From positions 1 through 64,000 of the forward strand of contig NZ_JAUHPV010000010.1 in assembly GCF_030418315.1 (NCBI RefSeq): DNA of 64,000 bases, in the 5' to 3' direction. Under the pieces are notes generated by a model. The model ran no database searches and had not been told where the DNA came from. It saw nothing but the letters and a program-made list of their open reading frames with translations. Positions within the stretch are counted from its first letter, which is position 1. Each line of letters starts with the position of its first letter. This DNA comes from Demequina zhanjiangensis (GTDB lineage Bacteria; Actinomycetota; Actinomycetes; Actinomycetales; Demequinaceae). Both the position numbers and the translations under genes were made by a program. Below are positions 1-6,554 of this stretch, one piece after another.

Positions 1-18
1 GGAGGCCCGCCGACCCCT

Positions 19-50
19 GGGCCCGGGGGGGCGCGCCCCCCCCGGGGCCC
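19..50 (-). terminator. GC-only hairpin downstream of the DUF2200 gene
   Basis: Runs of seven G (25-31) and eight C (36-43) around a CGCG centre, flanked by GGGCCC on one side and GGGGCCC on the other, fold into a stem of about 13 bp with a bulge. It follows the stop of the minus-strand gene ending at 82, so it could stop transcription, but there is no U-tract. Its homopolymers at the window edge also make it a place where assembly errors are likely. Confidence 0.4.
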
Positions 51-81
51 CCCCGCTCCTGCCGTATGCGCCGGAAGTCCG

Positions 82-432
82 TCAGGCGCGCAGGATCGAG
101 CTCATGCGCTTGCCGCGGGCCACCTCGTCGACGAGCTTGTCCATCCAGCGGATCTGCTGCATCAGAGGCTCCTCGATCTCCTCGACGCGCACGCCGCAGA
201 TCACTCCCGTGATGAGCCCGGAGTGCGGGTTCATCGCCGGGGCCTGGGCGAAGAACTCCTCGAGCGTCCGCTCGTCCGCCACCGCCTCGGCCAGCCCCGC
301 GTCGTCGTAGCCTGTGAGCCACGCGATCACCTGGTCGACCTCGTCCTGGGTGTGGCCCTTGCGCTCCGCCTTCTTCACGTAGAGCGGGTAGATGCTCGCA
401 AAGCTCATGCGGTAGATCTTGTGGCCAGCCAT
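82..432 (-). CDS. DUF2200 family protein
   Basis: A 116-residue protein that matches the DUF2200 family from memory of its N-terminus ([18 protein letters not shown]) and the conserved middle segment around YDDAGLA and [20 protein letters not shown]. The family has no assigned biochemical role; it is a small soluble protein with no signal peptide or membrane segment. The ATG at 432 is chosen because GGAGGAG sits 4-5 bases upstream; an upstream ATG at 528 would add 32 arginine-rich residues that look unlike the family. The gene is divergent from the winged-helix hydrolase. Function unknown. Confidence 0.8.
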
Positions 433-532
433 GACACTCCTCCGGGATGGATCGCTGCCGTCAAGGGTAGGCGCACCGTGCCGCGCGCGTGGGCGCGGCC
501 CGCGGGGCAGTGACTCCGTGCGCCTCACCGGC

Positions 533-538
533 TACCCT
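533..538 (+). promoter_or_regulatory. -10 element of a leaderless gene
   Basis: TACCCT ends six bases before the GTG at 545, the spacing expected when transcription starts at or next to the start codon. There is no Shine-Dalgarno sequence upstream of this GTG. Confidence 0.45.
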
Positions 539-544
539 CGCTGT

Positions 545-1747
545 GTGGGTGGGGGTCGCTACACATTCGGGGACTGCGAGCTCGACGTCGCCGGCTACAC
601 GCTGGCGCGCGGGGGCACGCAGGTCTCCGTCGAGCCTCGAGTGTTCGACCTGCTTGCGCATCTGGTCACCCACCGCGATCGCGTGGTGACCAAGGAGGAG
701 CTGCTCGACACCCTGTGGGGCACGCGTTTCGTCTCGGAAGCCGCGCTCACGACCGCGCTCCGCTCCGCGCGCCTCGCCGTCGGGGACAGCGGCAGCGCGC
801 AACGGGTGATCCGTACCGTGCACGGCCGCGGCTACCAGTTCGTGGCCAGCGTGGCGACGCAGACGCCGCAGGCGGAGGTGTCGATCCCGCACGCCCCGCC
901 GTCGCCCGGCGCGCAGCGGGTCCGCTTCTGTCACGCCGAGGACGGCGTGCGCATCGCCTACGCCGAGGTCGGGCAGGGCCCCGTGCTGATGAAGGCTGCC
1001 AACTGGATCACCCACCTGGACCTCGAATGGGGCAGTGCGGTGTGGAGCCACTGGCTCTACGGGTTGGCCGACGGCCGACGCCTGATCCGCTACGACGAGC
1101 GCGGATGCGGCATGTCGGACCAGGACGTGCCCAGCTCGACCTTCGAGGACTGGGTGAGCGACCTCGAGACCGTGGTCGACGCTGCCGGGCTGGACCGGTT
1201 CCCGCTTCTCGGCGTCTCGCAGGGCGGCGCCGTTGCGCTCGCGTACGCGGTCCGGCATCCGGAGCGTGTCACCCATCTGGTGCTGGCCGGGGCCTACGCC
1301 CGTGGCCGCATGGTGCGCGCCCGAGACGACGGCGAGCGGGCCGAGGCCGTGCTCGACCTCGACCTCGCCCGCGTCGGCTGGGAGCGAGACGACCCGAGCT
1401 TCATGCGGGTCTTCGCGTCCCAGTTCCTCCCTGGCGGCACCCTCGACGACTGGGACGACTTCACGCGCTTCCAGAAGCGGACTTGCTCCGGTGCGAACGC
1501 CGTGAGGTTCCTGGAGGAGTTCGGAAGCATCGACGTGAGGGACCTGCTTCCGCAGGTGTCATGTCCGACGCTGATCCTCCATTCGAGGGACGACAGGAGG
1601 GTGCCGGTGTCAGAGGCGCGCGACCTTGCCGCGCTCATCCCCGACAGCCGCCTGGTGCTGCTCGACAGCGCGAGCCATCTCATCGGCGCGGCGGAACCTG
1701 CCTGGCCTGAGTTCCTGTCCCATATCGACGCGTTCCTTGCGTCGTGA
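545..1747 (+). CDS. Winged-helix DNA-binding domain fused to an alpha/beta hydrolase
   Basis: A 400-residue two-domain protein. Residues 5-103 are an OmpR/CadC-type winged helix (Trans_reg_C) with the typical RVFDLLAHLV helix and the GRGYQF wing. Residues 125-400 are an alpha/beta hydrolase with nucleophile Ser225 in GVSQG, an acid at Asp349/350 and His378 in DSASHL, so the triad looks complete. Such fusions suggest a regulator whose hydrolase-fold domain senses or turns over a small ester, but this is inference. The GTG at 545 is preferred because the winged helix begins there and TACCCT lies just upstream (leaderless). No membrane segment is seen, unlike CadC. The 3' end overlaps the opposing membrane-protein gene by about 138 bp. 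Confidence 0.8.
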   Translation: MGGGRYTFGDCELDVAGYTLARGGTQVSVEPRVFDLLAHLVTHRDRVVTKEELLDTLWGTRFVSEAALTTALRSARLAVGDSGSAQRVIRTVHGRGYQFVASVATQTPQAEVSIPHAPPSPGAQRVRFCHAEDGVRIAYAEVGQGPVLMKAANWITHLDLEWGSAVWSHWLYGLADGRRLIRYDERGCGMSDQDVPSSTFEDWVSDLETVVDAAGLDRFPLLGVSQGGAVALAYAVRHPERVTHLVLAGAYARGRMVRARDDGERAEAVLDLDLARVGWERDDPSFMRVFASQFLPGGTLDDWDDFTRFQKRTCSGANAVRFLEEFGSIDVRDLLPQVSCPTLILHSRDDRRVPVSEARDLAALIPDSRLVLLDSASHLIGAAEPAWPEFLSHIDAFLAS

Positions 1748-1951
1748 CCTGCTGACCTTCACAAGGTGGTAGAGGTTCACCGCCACGAGGATCCCGTTGA
1801 GGACCACCATCGACGGGATGAGCATCAGTGCGTTGAACACGAGCAGCAGCGCTGAGGCCGCCAGGTTGAGCTGCCGAAGATGCAGCATGTCGCGCTGCGT
1901 CAGCGACAGCAGCAGGAGGGCGGAGCCGATCCAGCCGAGCGCCTCCGTCAT
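1610..1951 (-). CDS. Small YgjV-like membrane protein
   Basis: A 113-residue protein with three hydrophobic segments at about residues 5-15, 27-45 and 47-62, followed by an arginine/lysine-rich tail (KVSRSRRKER). The pattern and the segment LNGILVAVNLYHLVKV resemble the YgjV-like family of small inner-membrane proteins, whose function is unknown. The ATG at 1951 overlaps the stop of the 59-residue gene upstream as ATGA, so the two are probably translationally coupled. The last 45 or so residues are read antisense to the 3' end of the hydrolase gene, and that tail is the least certain part. No Shine-Dalgarno is seen, which fits coupling. Confidence 0.65.
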   Translation of the reverse strand: MTEALGWIGSALLLLSLTQRDMLHLRQLNLAASALLLVFNALMLIPSMVVLNGILVAVNLYHLVKVSRSRRKERVDMGQELRPGRFRRADEMARAVEQHQAAVGDERGKVARL

Positions 1952-2127
1952 CGCATCCCGATCATCAGGGCCGACGCGCTGCGCGCCGGCTCGGTGACCC
2001 AGCGGTCGCGCAGCGCTGTGCTGCTCACCTGGGATGCGCGGACGGTCCGTGCGTGGGATGCGTGGGGCTGTGGGTCTCGCGGCCTGGTGTGCGCGGCATC
2101 GGTCGCCGGGTGATTCCACTTGACCAT
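1948..2127 (-). CDS. Small 59-residue protein coupled to the YgjV-like gene
   Basis: An ORF of 59 residues beginning MVKWNHPATDAAHTRPRDPQ and ending SALMIGMR. Support comes from signals, not homology: AGAGGAG lies six bases before the ATG at 2127, the stop codon overlaps the next gene's start (ATGA), and a three-copy 11-bp repeat lies 70-100 bp upstream. It is rich in His, Arg and Pro with no membrane segment or signal peptide. I do not recognise the protein. It could instead be a leader peptide that opens the start of the downstream gene. Confidence 0.5.
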   Translation of the reverse strand: MVKWNHPATDAAHTRPRDPQPHASHARTVRASQVSSTALRDRWVTEPARSASALMIGMR

Positions 2128-2194
2128 GTCGACTCCTCTCTCGTGTGGCCCCGGTCAGGGCACCGAAAGATCGTCGTCCGGTCGGCTCGCGCAG

Positions 2195-2224
2195 ACTTGA
2201 GGCGGACCTGAGGGGAGTCTGAGG
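2195..2224. promoter_or_regulatory. Three direct repeats with 11-bp period
   Basis: ACTTGAGG (2195), ACCTGAGG (2206) and GTCTGAGG (2217) recur at exactly 11-bp steps, one helical turn. Tandem repeats of this spacing are the classic binding pattern of OmpR/PhoP-type winged-helix regulators. They lie between the stop of the first FUSC gene and the 59-residue gene, in the likely promoter of the small-protein/YgjV pair. The nearby winged-helix/hydrolase fusion is a candidate binder, by inference. Confidence 0.5.
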
Positions 2225-2230
2225 GGCGCG

Positions 2231-3328
2231 TCAGCGCGGCGCTGCGTTGCCCGCCCGACGAGGTGCGGGGATGAGCGCGGCGAGCACTCCAAGCGTCGCT
2301 CCGACGAGGGTGTCGATCACCCGCTCGGGTGCGACCGTGGAGCCTGCTGTGCCTCCCGCCGACGTGACCAGCAGCAGCACGAGAGGGGTGATGAAGGTGA
2401 GGGCGAGCGCGTAGTGGCGCACGACGAGCAGCTCGATCGTGAACTGGAGCACGCCCAGCACCAGGGCCAGCGCGACGGTGCTCAGCGAGAGCTGCGCAAG
2501 GCCTGCGAAGAGGAGCGCGCCGGTGACCGTGCCGACGACGCGGTGGAGACCGCGTGAGGCGACGGCGCGGCGGGGCGCGCGCATCGCGACGACCGCCACT
2601 CCTGCGCACACGGTCCAGTAGGCGCGATCGGGGTCCACGATCGCGACGCTGAGGATGGTGCCGGTCAGTGCGACGGCGGCGACCCTGATCGCGACCGTCA
2701 GGCCGTCGACGCTCCACGAGGGTCCCGGTACGAGCGTGCGGAGCGGAGTCGCTGTAACGCGATGGCGGGAGAGGGCCAGCGGCGCGGCGGCGATGAGGGA
2801 GGCGAACGCCACGCCTGACGCGACAGCGCCCACGAACGACACCGGGTCGACATGGCGCACTCCGTCGGTCGCCATCGTGATGTGAGCCGACGAGCCGAAC
2901 ACGAGGACGAAGAAGATGGGCCCCGGAGGCCCCACGTCGAAGACCTGCGTGAGAAGGCCCGCGGCCACGGCGATCGAGATCAGGCCGACGGCGGTGGCGA
3001 CCGCTGAGCCGCCAGCGGCTGCGCCGAGGGCGGCGCACAGCAGGAGAACGCTTCCGATCAACGGGACCGTCCGCGCGCGGTCCACGTGCTTCGCGCTGCC
3101 GAAGTACAGCAGTGCGAAGGCGCCGAGCGCAGCCTGGAAGCCGATCTCCGCGTGGCCCGCAGCGTTGCCGATGAGGATGGGCCCCGCGACGGCGATCGCC
3201 GCCTGGAGGCCGAGCGGCCATCGACGGTGGGGGTGGGGCCGCACGTCGCCGAGGCTGCGGACTGCGTGTGCCGCGGTGTCCATGGCGCGCCGCGTGCGAG
3301 ACGGGCGGTCTCCGCGTTCCTGCGTCAC
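2231..3328 (-). CDS. FUSC-type membrane protein (aromatic acid exporter-like), copy 1
   Basis: A 365-residue protein with two blocks of transmembrane helices separated by a loop, the arrangement of the FUSC/aromatic acid exporter superfamily. The conserved core DPDRAYWTV and the following helix GLHRVVGTVTGALLF are typical. These proteins are thought to export weak organic acids, but the substrate here is unknown. The GTG at 3328 has GAGGAG at the right distance and gives a protein the same length as the neighbouring paralogue; a downstream ATG at 3283 is the alternative. It lies downstream of tRNA-Ser and a hairpin and is the diverged twin of the gene at 3542-4636. Confidence 0.8.
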   Translation of the reverse strand: MTQERGDRPSRTRRAMDTAAHAVRSLGDVRPHPHRRWPLGLQAAIAVAGPILIGNAAGHAEIGFQAALGAFALLYFGSAKHVDRARTVPLIGSVLLLCAALGAAAGGSAVATAVGLISIAVAAGLLTQVFDVGPPGPIFFVLVFGSSAHITMATDGVRHVDPVSFVGAVASGVAFASLIAAAPLALSRHRVTATPLRTLVPGPSWSVDGLTVAIRVAAVALTGTILSVAIVDPDRAYWTVCAGVAVVAMRAPRRAVASRGLHRVVGTVTGALLFAGLAQLSLSTVALALVLGVLQFTIELLVVRHYALALTFITPLVLLLVTSAGGTAGSTVAPERVIDTLVGATLGVLAALIPAPRRAGNAAPR

Positions 3329-3379
3329 ATGGTCTCCTCGGGCCCTCGCGCGGGTCGGATCACCGACCGGGGAAGCAGT

Positions 3380-3412
3380 GAAGCCCCCGGCGCGCTCGGC
3401 GCCGAGGGCTTC
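3380..3412 (-). terminator. Hairpin downstream of tRNA-Ser
   Basis: GAAGCCCTCGGCGC pairs with GCGCCGGGGGCTTC with one G-U pair and a tight loop, six bases after the tRNA 3' end. It lacks a clear U-tract. It probably ends the tRNA transcript before the FUSC gene. Confidence 0.6.
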
Positions 3413-3417
3413 CTCTG

Positions 3418-3508
3418 TGGCGGTGACGGTGGGATTTGAACCCACGGTACGGGGTTACCGTACACAGCATTTCGAGTGCTGCACCTTCGGCCGCTCGGAC
3501 ACGTCACC
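3418..3508 (-). tRNA. tRNA-Ser (anticodon CGA)
   Basis: A class II tRNA with a long variable arm. The acceptor stem is GGTGACG/CGTCACC with discriminator G, and the 3' CCA is encoded. The anticodon arm is CAGCA-CTCGAAA-TGCTG, giving anticodon CGA for the serine codon UCG. The T-arm reads GTGGGTTCAAATCCCAC. The variable arm (GTACGGTAACCCCGTAC) forms its own stem, as expected for tRNA-Ser. It sits between the two FUSC genes on the same strand. Confidence 0.95.
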
Positions 3509-3541
3509 GCGAAGAAGGATACCCGTTGTTCACCGTGCCGC

Positions 3542-4636
3542 CTAATCGGCTGTGGGCGGCAGGTTGAGCCGCGCCGCCTGAGGCGGTCCAGGGGCGTGGA
3601 TGAGTGCTGTCGCAACGGCCAGGCCCGCGCCTACGACGGTGTCGAGGATGCGTTCGCCGACCACGACCGGGGTGCCGAACTCGCCCGCTGCCGAGGTGAC
3701 GATGATGAGCGCGAGGGGGGTGACCGCGGCCGTGGTGATCGCATAGTGCCGGGTGATCGCGAGCTCGGTGATGAACTGAAGCACGCCAAGGGTGAGGGCG
3801 AGCAGCCAGGGGTTCATCGGGGTCATTCCGAGCAGCATGTAGACGCCCACGCCTGCGATCGTGCCCACGGTGCGGTGGAGCCCGCGGGTGGCGGCGATGC
3901 CGCGCCCGGGCACGATGCCGACCACGACGACTCCGGCGGCCACGGTCCAGTAGGCGCGCTCCGGGTCGGTGTAGAGCATGCTGATCGCGGTGCCCAGCAC
4001 GGCGACGATGGCAGTGCGGATCAGCATCTCCCGTGCCCCGCGGTCCCATTCGGGACGCGCCAGGATCTGGCGCAGCGAGCGGGGGACCACGAGCCAGTGC
4101 ACGCGTCGCACGAGCGGCACGATGCTGGCGACCACCGCGAAGGCGCATCCGACGCTCACCCACCCCACCGTCGTCGTCCAGGGCTCACCCGCGGCTGTGG
4201 CGTGTGCCGACATGCCGTACACGATGACGGGGAAGAGCGGTCCGGGCGGCCCCAGCCGGTAGGCGTGCACGGCCGCGCCGACTCCGACGGCGACCAGGAT
4301 GAGGCCGAGGCTCGTGAGAAGCGGGTGGGCTCCGACGGCGGCGCCGAGCGCAGAGGAGGCGACGAGCACCAGGCCGGCGAGTGGTCTCAGGCGGAGGCGC
4401 TCGAGCCGGGGGAGCGCCGCGAAGTAGGGGACCGTGAAGGCACCCACGCATGCGAGCAGGCCCTCCTCGACGTGCCCTGTTGCCGCTCCGATCAGCAGCG
4501 GCACCGTCATCACGACGGTCGCCTGGAGAGCGATCGGCCAGCGGGGCTCGCCCGGTGGTGCGATCGTGCCGAGGGTCGCGACCGCGCGCCTCATGCCGTC
4601 GCGCCAGATATCGCGCGTGCGGGGTGCTTCGGTCAC
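3542..4636 (-). CDS. FUSC-type membrane protein (aromatic acid exporter-like), copy 2
   Basis: A 364-residue paralogue of the gene at 2231-3328. It has two transmembrane blocks, the core DPERAYWTVAAGVVVV and GLHRTVGTIAGVGVYML, and the same C-terminal pattern GERILDTVVGAGLAV. The role is probably export of small organic acids; the substrate is unknown. The GTG start overlaps the tadA stop (GTGA), so it is probably co-transcribed and translationally coupled to tadA. No Shine-Dalgarno is needed in that arrangement. Confidence 0.8.
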   Translation of the reverse strand: MTEAPRTRDIWRDGMRRAVATLGTIAPPGEPRWPIALQATVVMTVPLLIGAATGHVEEGLLACVGAFTVPYFAALPRLERLRLRPLAGLVLVASSALGAAVGAHPLLTSLGLILVAVGVGAAVHAYRLGPPGPLFPVIVYGMSAHATAAGEPWTTTVGWVSVGCAFAVVASIVPLVRRVHWLVVPRSLRQILARPEWDRGAREMLIRTAIVAVLGTAISMLYTDPERAYWTVAAGVVVVGIVPGRGIAATRGLHRTVGTIAGVGVYMLLGMTPMNPWLLALTLGVLQFITELAITRHYAITTAAVTPLALIIVTSAAGEFGTPVVVGERILDTVVGAGLAVATALIHAPGPPQAARLNLPPTAD

Positions 4637-6355: not shown

Positions 6356-6554
6356 CCGGCGGCAGGAGGCTGTTCGTCCTCCGTCATCAGCGGCGCGCTC
6401 TGCGTCAAGCCCCCTCCAGGCGTCGGCCTGCACAATGGCACCGGCAGGCCCGTCGACGATGATCGGCCGCTTCCTACCGCCCCGGGGGTCGAGCTCCCGT
6501 CGCGGTGGGCGGCTCCGCGTCGAGGGCTCATTGGCCTGAGCGAAGGGAAGTCAC

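Follow-up and report, generated by a model that had tools for sequence, protein, structure and literature searches.

A winged-helix and alpha/beta-hydrolase fusion and its triple 11-bp repeat recur together in other bacteria and probably mark a little-studied kind of gene switch

The 64-kb stretch of DNA analyzed here (the window, contig C2 of the 3.1-Mb genome G000) carries three short direct repeats close to a gene that joins a DNA-binding domain to a hydrolase, which raises the question of whether the repeats are the operator of that protein and, if so, what they control. The first-pass annotation, made from the letters of the window, had noted the three repeats at exact 11-bp steps, and they are present as the units GACTTGAGGCG (2194-2204), GACCTGAGGGG (2205-2215) and AGTCTGAGGGG (2216-2226) of the plus strand, with TGAGG at 2198, 2209 and 2220 and a degenerate fourth unit (TCAGC) at 2231. 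On the minus strand, the array reads as CCTCA toward position 2127, and it lies 0.45 kb from the fusion gene (545-1747), in the gap that separates that position from the stop codon of a minus-strand FUSC-family gene (2231-3292). Direct repeats at 11-bp steps, by which operators of the SARP/OmpR type are recognized, were found in the array at 2194-2226 and also at other loci of the family. The OmpR/PhoP-type form proposed for the repeats was thus borne out as an OmpR/SARP type, and sequence and comparison together mark the array as a predicted operator.

Taken by itself, the triple is within chance, and its significance comes from the comparison with other loci only. The window contained one run-of-5 triple with a period of 11 for any word, compared with 0.77 ± 0.88 in 30 Markov sequences. 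Arrays were scored as the word YTGAGG occurring three times at steps of 10-12 (maximum 18), and the array of the window scored 18 of 18. In 20 Mb of simulated sequence, scores of at least 16 arose at a rate of 0.032 per 10 kb and scores of at least 17 at 0.0005 per 10 kb, no array reached 18, and 390 kb of background sequence held no YTGAGG array of at least 16. The strict YTGAGG triple was found five times in the 44 genomes of the genus, own included, against two for a reversed-pattern control. Only two of these are in G000, namely the array of the window and one in the promoter of an LRR-protein gene (C11:225059), and the others are in G027, G060 and G064 (contig C9), with no link to a fusion seen for G027 and G060. 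A looser pattern (TGAGG with gaps of 5-7) matched in 32 of the 44 genomes; the word alone is therefore not specific, and this pattern was dropped for counting a regulon.

The gene just beyond had been read as an OmpR-type winged helix fused to a hydrolase ending nearby, and Pfam supported this reading for the gene that ends at 1747 on the plus strand. A Trans_reg_C domain of the OmpR/PhoB type (PF00486, E 2.6e-16, 59.9 bits against a cut-off of 26.2) spans 614-841 and an Abhydrolase_1 domain (PF00561, E 1.2e-24, 87.8 bits) spans 1031-1684. Going by the known fold, we take the segment SEAALTTALRSAR to be the recognition helix of the Trans_reg_C domain. The protein has both the fold and the Ser-Asp-His triad by which alpha/beta-hydrolases are recognized, with Ser225, Asp349/350 and His378 intact in the alignment (GTG 545 being residue 1). 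Among the aligned relatives, the catalytic Ser is kept in 24 of 24 rows and the His in 23 of 23, and the acidic position, residue 350, holds Asp in 21 of 24 rows and Glu in three distant members. Neither a receiver domain nor a BTAD domain was found, as Pfam matches at E ≤ 0.1 comprised Trans_reg_C and hydrolase-fold families only. In the genome G197 (L260, G197:C5:430000-437500), the same hydrolase domain is joined, by eye, to a SARP-like part (winged helix and BTAD), which looks like an exchange of the sensor half between regulators. The Ser and His kept in all aligned rows, together with related hydrolases paired with other output parts, suggest that the hydrolase domain is the input module of the fusion. 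Current databases label such proteins 'alpha/beta fold hydrolase' or 'winged helix-turn-helix domain-containing protein', and no relatives were found in viral contigs.

The fusion gene probably starts at a leaderless GTG (545), as judged by eye from orthologs. A candidate -10 element, TACCCT (533-538, plus strand), was picked by eye 6 nt before this GTG, and orthologs have TANNCT at similar spacing; the leaderless-looking pattern of TACCCT, 6 nt and GTG at 533-547 is repeated in them by eye. A DUF2200 gene identified by Pfam (82-432, minus strand) is divergent from the fusion, and a DUF2200-like gene (by eye) also stands directly before the fusion in the genome G085. The first 60 nucleotides of the window are a very G/C-rich, self-complementary contig start, which is probably an assembly break.

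The second strict triple of G000 lies between a membrane-protein gene and a gene for a BspA-type LRR protein (PF13306), the N-terminus of which looks, by eye, like an export signal, and the fusion gene of this genome is located elsewhere. In six congeners (G002, G011, G024, G033, G061 and G064), the fusion is directly upstream of the LRR gene, and the array between the two genes includes the stop codon of the fusion. A membrane-protein gene of the same type precedes the fusion in G011, G033 and G061, and no match to it was found in G002, G024 and G064. Seven genomes of the genus, G000 among them, have a strong LRR match (E below 1e-50, a threshold that cut 12 LRR matches to 7), and in all of them an array scoring 16-18 stands before the LRR gene. 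Near this type of membrane-protein gene, the best array scores were 13-15 in the 20 genomes, out of 24, that do not have that LRR gene, and 16 of the 24 loci, in fusion-free genomes, scored 13-15; the loci of G033 and G029 did not extend as far as the array position. In G012, which has no strong LRR match, a partial array (score 15) and an LRR-gene remnant (by eye) follow the membrane-protein gene. In G020 (L147, contig C13), a deletion joins the winged helix in frame to a C-terminal, LASTG-type wall-anchor-like segment of the LRR protein, so that the hydrolase and the array are gone, together with most of the LRR protein. The co-occurrence at the LRR locus and the remnants in G012 and G020 indicate that array and regulator belong together, and in G000 the regulator gene seems to have been relocated from its place beside the LRR gene. 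A simple duplication of the LRR-locus array into the window was rejected, as the flanks did not match by eye. In the fusion-bearing genome G064 (L083, contig C9), a strict YTGAGG triple lies 43 bp (hand count) before TACAGT, ahead of a gene for a secreted-looking Ig/P-domain protein, and this Ig-domain gene is likely a second surface-protein target.

Fusions outside the genus were used to compare the repeat word with the recognition helix. Matches at E ≤ 1e-40 were obtained in 26 of 394 sampled genomes of the class; outside G000, both halves of the fusion matched in G501, in seven genomes of the lineage f22, in three of the lineage f38 and, more weakly, in G412, and the fusions of G242 and G085 came from the order sample, the gene of G085 being split between two frames. 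No YTGAGG array of at least 16 was found in 124 kb around 14 distant fusion loci, so YTGAGG was rejected as the site of all fusions and a second word, RTGGAG, was sought. A YTGAGG triple (score of at least 16) was present at 8 of 10 fusion loci with a TTALR helix versus none of 12 with a TSRIK-class helix, worded (L/V)TSR(I/V)K, and an RTGGAG triple at steps of about 11 bp was present at 11 of the 12 TSRIK loci versus none of the 10 TTALR loci. The 390 kb of background sequence held no YTGAGG site and three RTGGAG sites. Left out of the ten TTALR loci were G020 (a winged-helix remnant), G029 (the contig breaks in the gene) and the window itself. The loci lacking their word were those of G004 and G012, which have TTALR-helix fusions with no array of at least 16 near them, and that of G242, which has a TSRIK helix with no RTGGAG array; G197, G879 and G770, which do not have the short winged helix, had neither word. 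Exact tests of word by helix class gave 1.4e-4 and 3.4e-5, values that are descriptive and do not count independent events since the classes are also clades. Because, in addition, a single locus of one genus accounts for six of the eight TTALR positives and RTGGAG was chosen from the scored loci, the covariation may rest on one or two events. The fusion of the window has a TTALR helix (ALTTALR) beside a YTGAGG array, and its word thus matches its helix class. At the level of the compared sequences, regulator and array are paired, and repeat word and helix class match.

The genes beside these arrays differ between lineages. In G085, which belongs to another family, and in G501, which lies outside the order, fusions with an ALTTALR helix have YTGAGG arrays beside them, scoring 16 and 16 in the former and 17 and 17 in the latter. 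One array of G085 (at 3453 of L259) has an FAD-oxidoreductase-like gene on one side and, on the other, the DUF2200-like gene that comes before the fusion; the second (at 6453) precedes a methyltransferase-like gene with no Pfam match. In G501, one array precedes the gene of a secreted-looking protein with no Pfam match and the other an AMP-ligase gene, after which comes another fusion whose helix differs; the second array could therefore belong to either fusion. Each of the seven f22 genomes has the RTGGAG array close after the stop codon of the fusion, followed in 7 of 7 by a similar gene that looks, by eye, like one for a lipoprotein. In f38, all three genomes have the array in front of the fusion itself, accompanied at a fixed distance by TAACCT, TAATCT or TAGCCT; in G412 it is 2.4 kb from the fusion.

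Plasmid records provided a further comparison, with a fusion match in 97 records, seven of which cover at least 80% of the protein; five of the 97 records were examined. The Streptomyces canus plasmid NZ_CP108710.1 encodes a fusion (WP_331737018.1) that is 53% identical and has the sole TTALR-like helix (ALATGLRTAR) among the five, and this locus, checked after the word was fixed, has a perfect YTGAGG triple (18) between a divergent hypothetical gene and a co-directional row of Vps62-related, AMP-binding and fusion genes. On a Gemmatirosa plasmid, a fusion with a TSRIK-like helix (NSRIK) has an RTGGAG array (score 16) about 2 kb past it. The plasmid fusions of Shinella, Acuticoccus and Ruegeria have a third helix type; neither word was found at the Shinella and Ruegeria loci, and the Acuticoccus locus had one YTGAGG match (score 16) 1.3 kb before the fusion. 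At these three loci (L312, L313 and L314), a divergent gene for a hypothetical protein of 61-85 residues lies just upstream of the fusion, and the gap contains 11-bp TCCYTG-like repeats by eye, clearest in Ruegeria. The alphaproteobacterial fusions possibly form a third class of helix and word. Together, the pairing of word and helix at other loci and the perfect triple of S. canus indicate that the array of the window is most likely the operator of the fusion's family.

The position of the array suggests how it would act. The minus strand of the window reads CCCTCAGACTC CCCTCAGGTCC GCCTCAAGTCT, followed by GACGAT (2170-2175, minus strand), a candidate -10 element; the proximal repeat CCTCAAGT (2195-2202) starts 27 bp before it, and an alternative -10-like element, GATCTT, is at +30. 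Similar spacing was observed in S. canus (GACGAT at +28) and at two promoters of G501 (GATGCT at +27 and +28 after the proximal C..CCAAG repeat, picked by its CAAG), and in f22 the distance from the third repeat to the start of NATGCT is exactly 27 bp at 7 of 7 loci. The methyltransferase promoter of G085 has no such element. All -10-like elements, and the proximal repeat in S. canus and G501, were picked by eye, and a promoter scan of 1-4000 gave no sigma-70-type match. At the LRR promoters, the array is reversed and farther upstream, with a repeat 43 bp before TANNNT. Set against the spacing in the window, S. canus and G501, this arrangement points to two promoter layouts, of which the window has the first, with the proximal repeat in the place of the -35 box. 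According to a passage of PMC5930380, SARP operators other than that of PimR overlap the -35 box, and the geometry of the window, S. canus and G501 resembles them in this respect.

The minus-strand transcript faced by the array is predicted to start near 2163 and to cross a 59-codon open reading frame (1948-2127), whose start lies 5 nt past GAGAGGAG and whose end shares the bases ATGA with the next start. The first-pass annotation had described this frame, with its strong Shine-Dalgarno and ATGA coupling, correctly; its proposal that it is a small-protein gene was not accepted. The only relative at E < 0.001 in the 44 genomes of the genus, own included, was the frame itself, there was no Pfam or NCBIfam match, and its codon score of 0.019 lies between those of genes (0.54 ± 0.15, minimum 0.30) and those of off-frame stretches (-0.53 ± 0.44, maximum 0.38). 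The frame is probably a leader ORF or spurious, and the strong Shine-Dalgarno keeps a translated leader possible.

The YgjV-like membrane protein proposed as the next gene starts at 1951 on the minus strand as described. The proposed family and length fared less well, as it matches YgjV (PF10688) with 19.0 bits against a cut-off of 23.5, aligning to positions 91-157 of 159, and is a truncated half of 68 residues (1748-1951). This segment has a codon score of 0.737 and is clearly coding; past 1748, the frame continues to 1610, antisense to the last 138 nt of the fusion, with a score of -0.09 that is not gene-like. Pfam, relatives and codon use identify it as the N-terminal part of a YgjV-like family whose members mostly have about 200 residues. 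Of 396 order genomes, 113 (G000 among them) have a match, with identities of relatives up to 52%; among the matches listed, they mostly continue into a soluble half, and a few are open frames of 110-142 residues. In the three relatives scanned, PF10688 was again below the gathering score, and an identification by eye of the soluble half as GNAT-like was dropped for want of Pfam support. The soluble half is missing from the gene of the window exactly where the 3' end of the fusion begins. No relative was seen beside a fusion among the 113 order genomes with a match, and in the ten congeners with a fusion or its remnant the nearest one was on another contig or more than 100 kb away. The membrane gene was therefore rejected as a conserved partner. 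The sole relative in the contig search (L150, 45% identity) is on a Pseudoalteromonas shioyasakiensis record, an unexpected host, with contamination or transfer as possible explanations.

On the other side of the array, the FUSC-family gene, identified by Pfam, has its stop codon within 5 bp of it. In 2231-4636, a tRNA-Ser (cga, 3418-3508, minus strand) lies between two FUSC-family genes that share about 42% identity, and in G012 the fusion adjoins the counterpart of the second one. Neighboring genes seem to change at this spot. The array at 2194-2226 was seen in G000 alone and, like the 59-residue frame, is not conserved at this location in relatives, so the circuit first proposed does not hold for this location in that form; the operator word is kept with the regulator elsewhere. 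Of that circuit, the fusion as the likely binder and a site that faces a minus-strand gene with the spacing of the family's promoters are retained, and the small protein and the membrane partner are not.

We consider it likely that the array at 2194-2226 is an operator of the fusion's regulator family, with the regulator most likely activating the minus-strand transcript. A chance triple in GC-rich DNA would be in keeping with the expectation of about one triple of any word per 64 kb; the word fixed by other loci, however, has a simulated rate of 0.0005 per 10 kb at scores of at least 17 and here stands 0.45 kb from a matching regulator gene, which makes chance very improbable. The array could instead be the site of a different OmpR-family regulator, for instance an unlinked response regulator of a two-component system, which would control the LRR gene as well and leave the fusion a mere neighbor. 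Operators of a similar kind serve response regulators, Trans_reg_C proteins are numerous in the genus (many weaker winged-helix matches per genome), another OmpR-family protein of the genome could share the word, and G004 and G012 have a fusion without a nearby array. Nevertheless, the fusion comes with arrays in several families, both places in G000 have one, the word changes with the recognition-helix class of the fusion, and 16 of the 24 loci of the LRR-associated membrane-protein gene, in fusion-free genomes, score only 13-15, and we regard this explanation as rather unlikely.

A more serious rival accepts the same operator identity and denies its present use here, the array being a relic of a lost target gene and the truncated membrane gene and leader ORF decaying without regulation. 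The soluble half lost exactly where the 3' end of the fusion begins, with the frame running antisense into the fusion, makes a decaying target a rival to be taken seriously. It gains from the leader ORF that is not gene-like, from the partial array beside an LRR-gene remnant (by eye) in G012 and from the deletion in G020 that joins the winged helix to a segment like the C-terminus of the LRR protein. In contrast, the array score is perfect (18), the spacing to the -10-like element matches that of other promoters, and the 68 residues keep a coding signature (0.737). We hold decay to be distinctly possible and do not favor it over an operator in use.

For such an operator in use, we propose that three (or four) 11-bp units arranged head to tail, one per helix turn, are bound by the OmpR/PhoB-type winged helix at the N-terminus, and that the C-terminal alpha/beta-hydrolase, with its triad intact, would serve as the input domain, binding or turning over a small molecule. 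The array would face the minus-strand transcript with its proximal repeat in the -35 place, 27 bp before GACGAT, a position from which the regulator would most likely activate, and the activated transcript would carry the leader ORF and the truncated membrane gene. Binding, activation over repression, sensing by the hydrolase and any function of the membrane product are what we infer; the one-component regulator with a hydrolase sensor is suggested by the domain order, and the spacing recurs among the compared promoters.

Several known systems share parts of this arrangement. OmpR/PhoB operators consist of 11-bp head-to-tail repeats, and the DNA-binding fold of the fusion is common to OmpR/PhoB and CadC/ToxR/HilA winged-helix regulators (PF00486). 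Compared with OmpR/PhoB-type regulators, the fusion has no receiver domain that was found and carries a soluble alpha/beta-hydrolase in the place of the sensor. In LipJ, a lipase/adenylate cyclase that we take to be Rv1900c, a hydrolase of the same superfamily is joined to a signal-output domain (NCBIfam NF058673 on 123-384, 85.4 bits); the score is far below the cut-off of 800, and the output is cyclic-nucleotide synthesis, whereas that predicted for the fusion is DNA binding. The closest named and solved relatives of the hydrolase half are enol-lactonase/arylesterase hydrolases (PcaD, bromoperoxidase-type esterases), whose triad is conserved in the fusion, although the match is far below equivalog cut-offs, and none of the 50 PDB matches listed spans both domains. 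YgjV-type proteins (PF10688) align with the membrane segment below the gathering score, and most relatives of the segment carry the extra soluble half. A passage of PMC5930380 describes the operator of PimR (SARP-LAL) as three heptamers with 4-nt spacers, which resembles the array of the window; the fusion of the window differs from SARPs in having no BTAD match, and its distant relative in G197 has a BTAD-like part by eye. The fold and the operator type are thus already known. Among the open-licence literature matches listed, no paper dealt with a winged-helix and alpha/beta-hydrolase regulator, and neither the joining to a hydrolase nor the two operator words came up.

The proposed targets include several exported-looking proteins (by eye, by kind), namely the LRR proteins, the f22 lipoproteins, the secreted protein of G501 and the Ig-domain protein of G064. 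Others are the AMP-ligase gene, the methyltransferase-like gene, the FAD-oxidoreductase or DUF2200-like genes and the row of S. canus, with the fusion itself in f38 and the membrane segment in the window. Tentatively, and with somewhat less than even confidence, we suggest that winged-helix and alpha/beta-hydrolase proteins are widespread one-component switches that would sense an ester- or lactone-like molecule through an enzyme fold turned receptor and drive genes for exported or surface proteins among others, their operator word having co-evolved with the helix, in Actinomycetota and, by architecture, in Gemmatimonadota and Alphaproteobacteria. The plant hormone receptors KAI2, D14 and GID1 use the alpha/beta-hydrolase fold. 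The comparison gives these generically labeled proteins a predicted operator, predicted targets and a putative built-in specificity code of two helix classes and two repeat words, and, if the hydrolase is the sensor, they would be a bacterial counterpart of the plant receptors of the same fold, wired directly to DNA.
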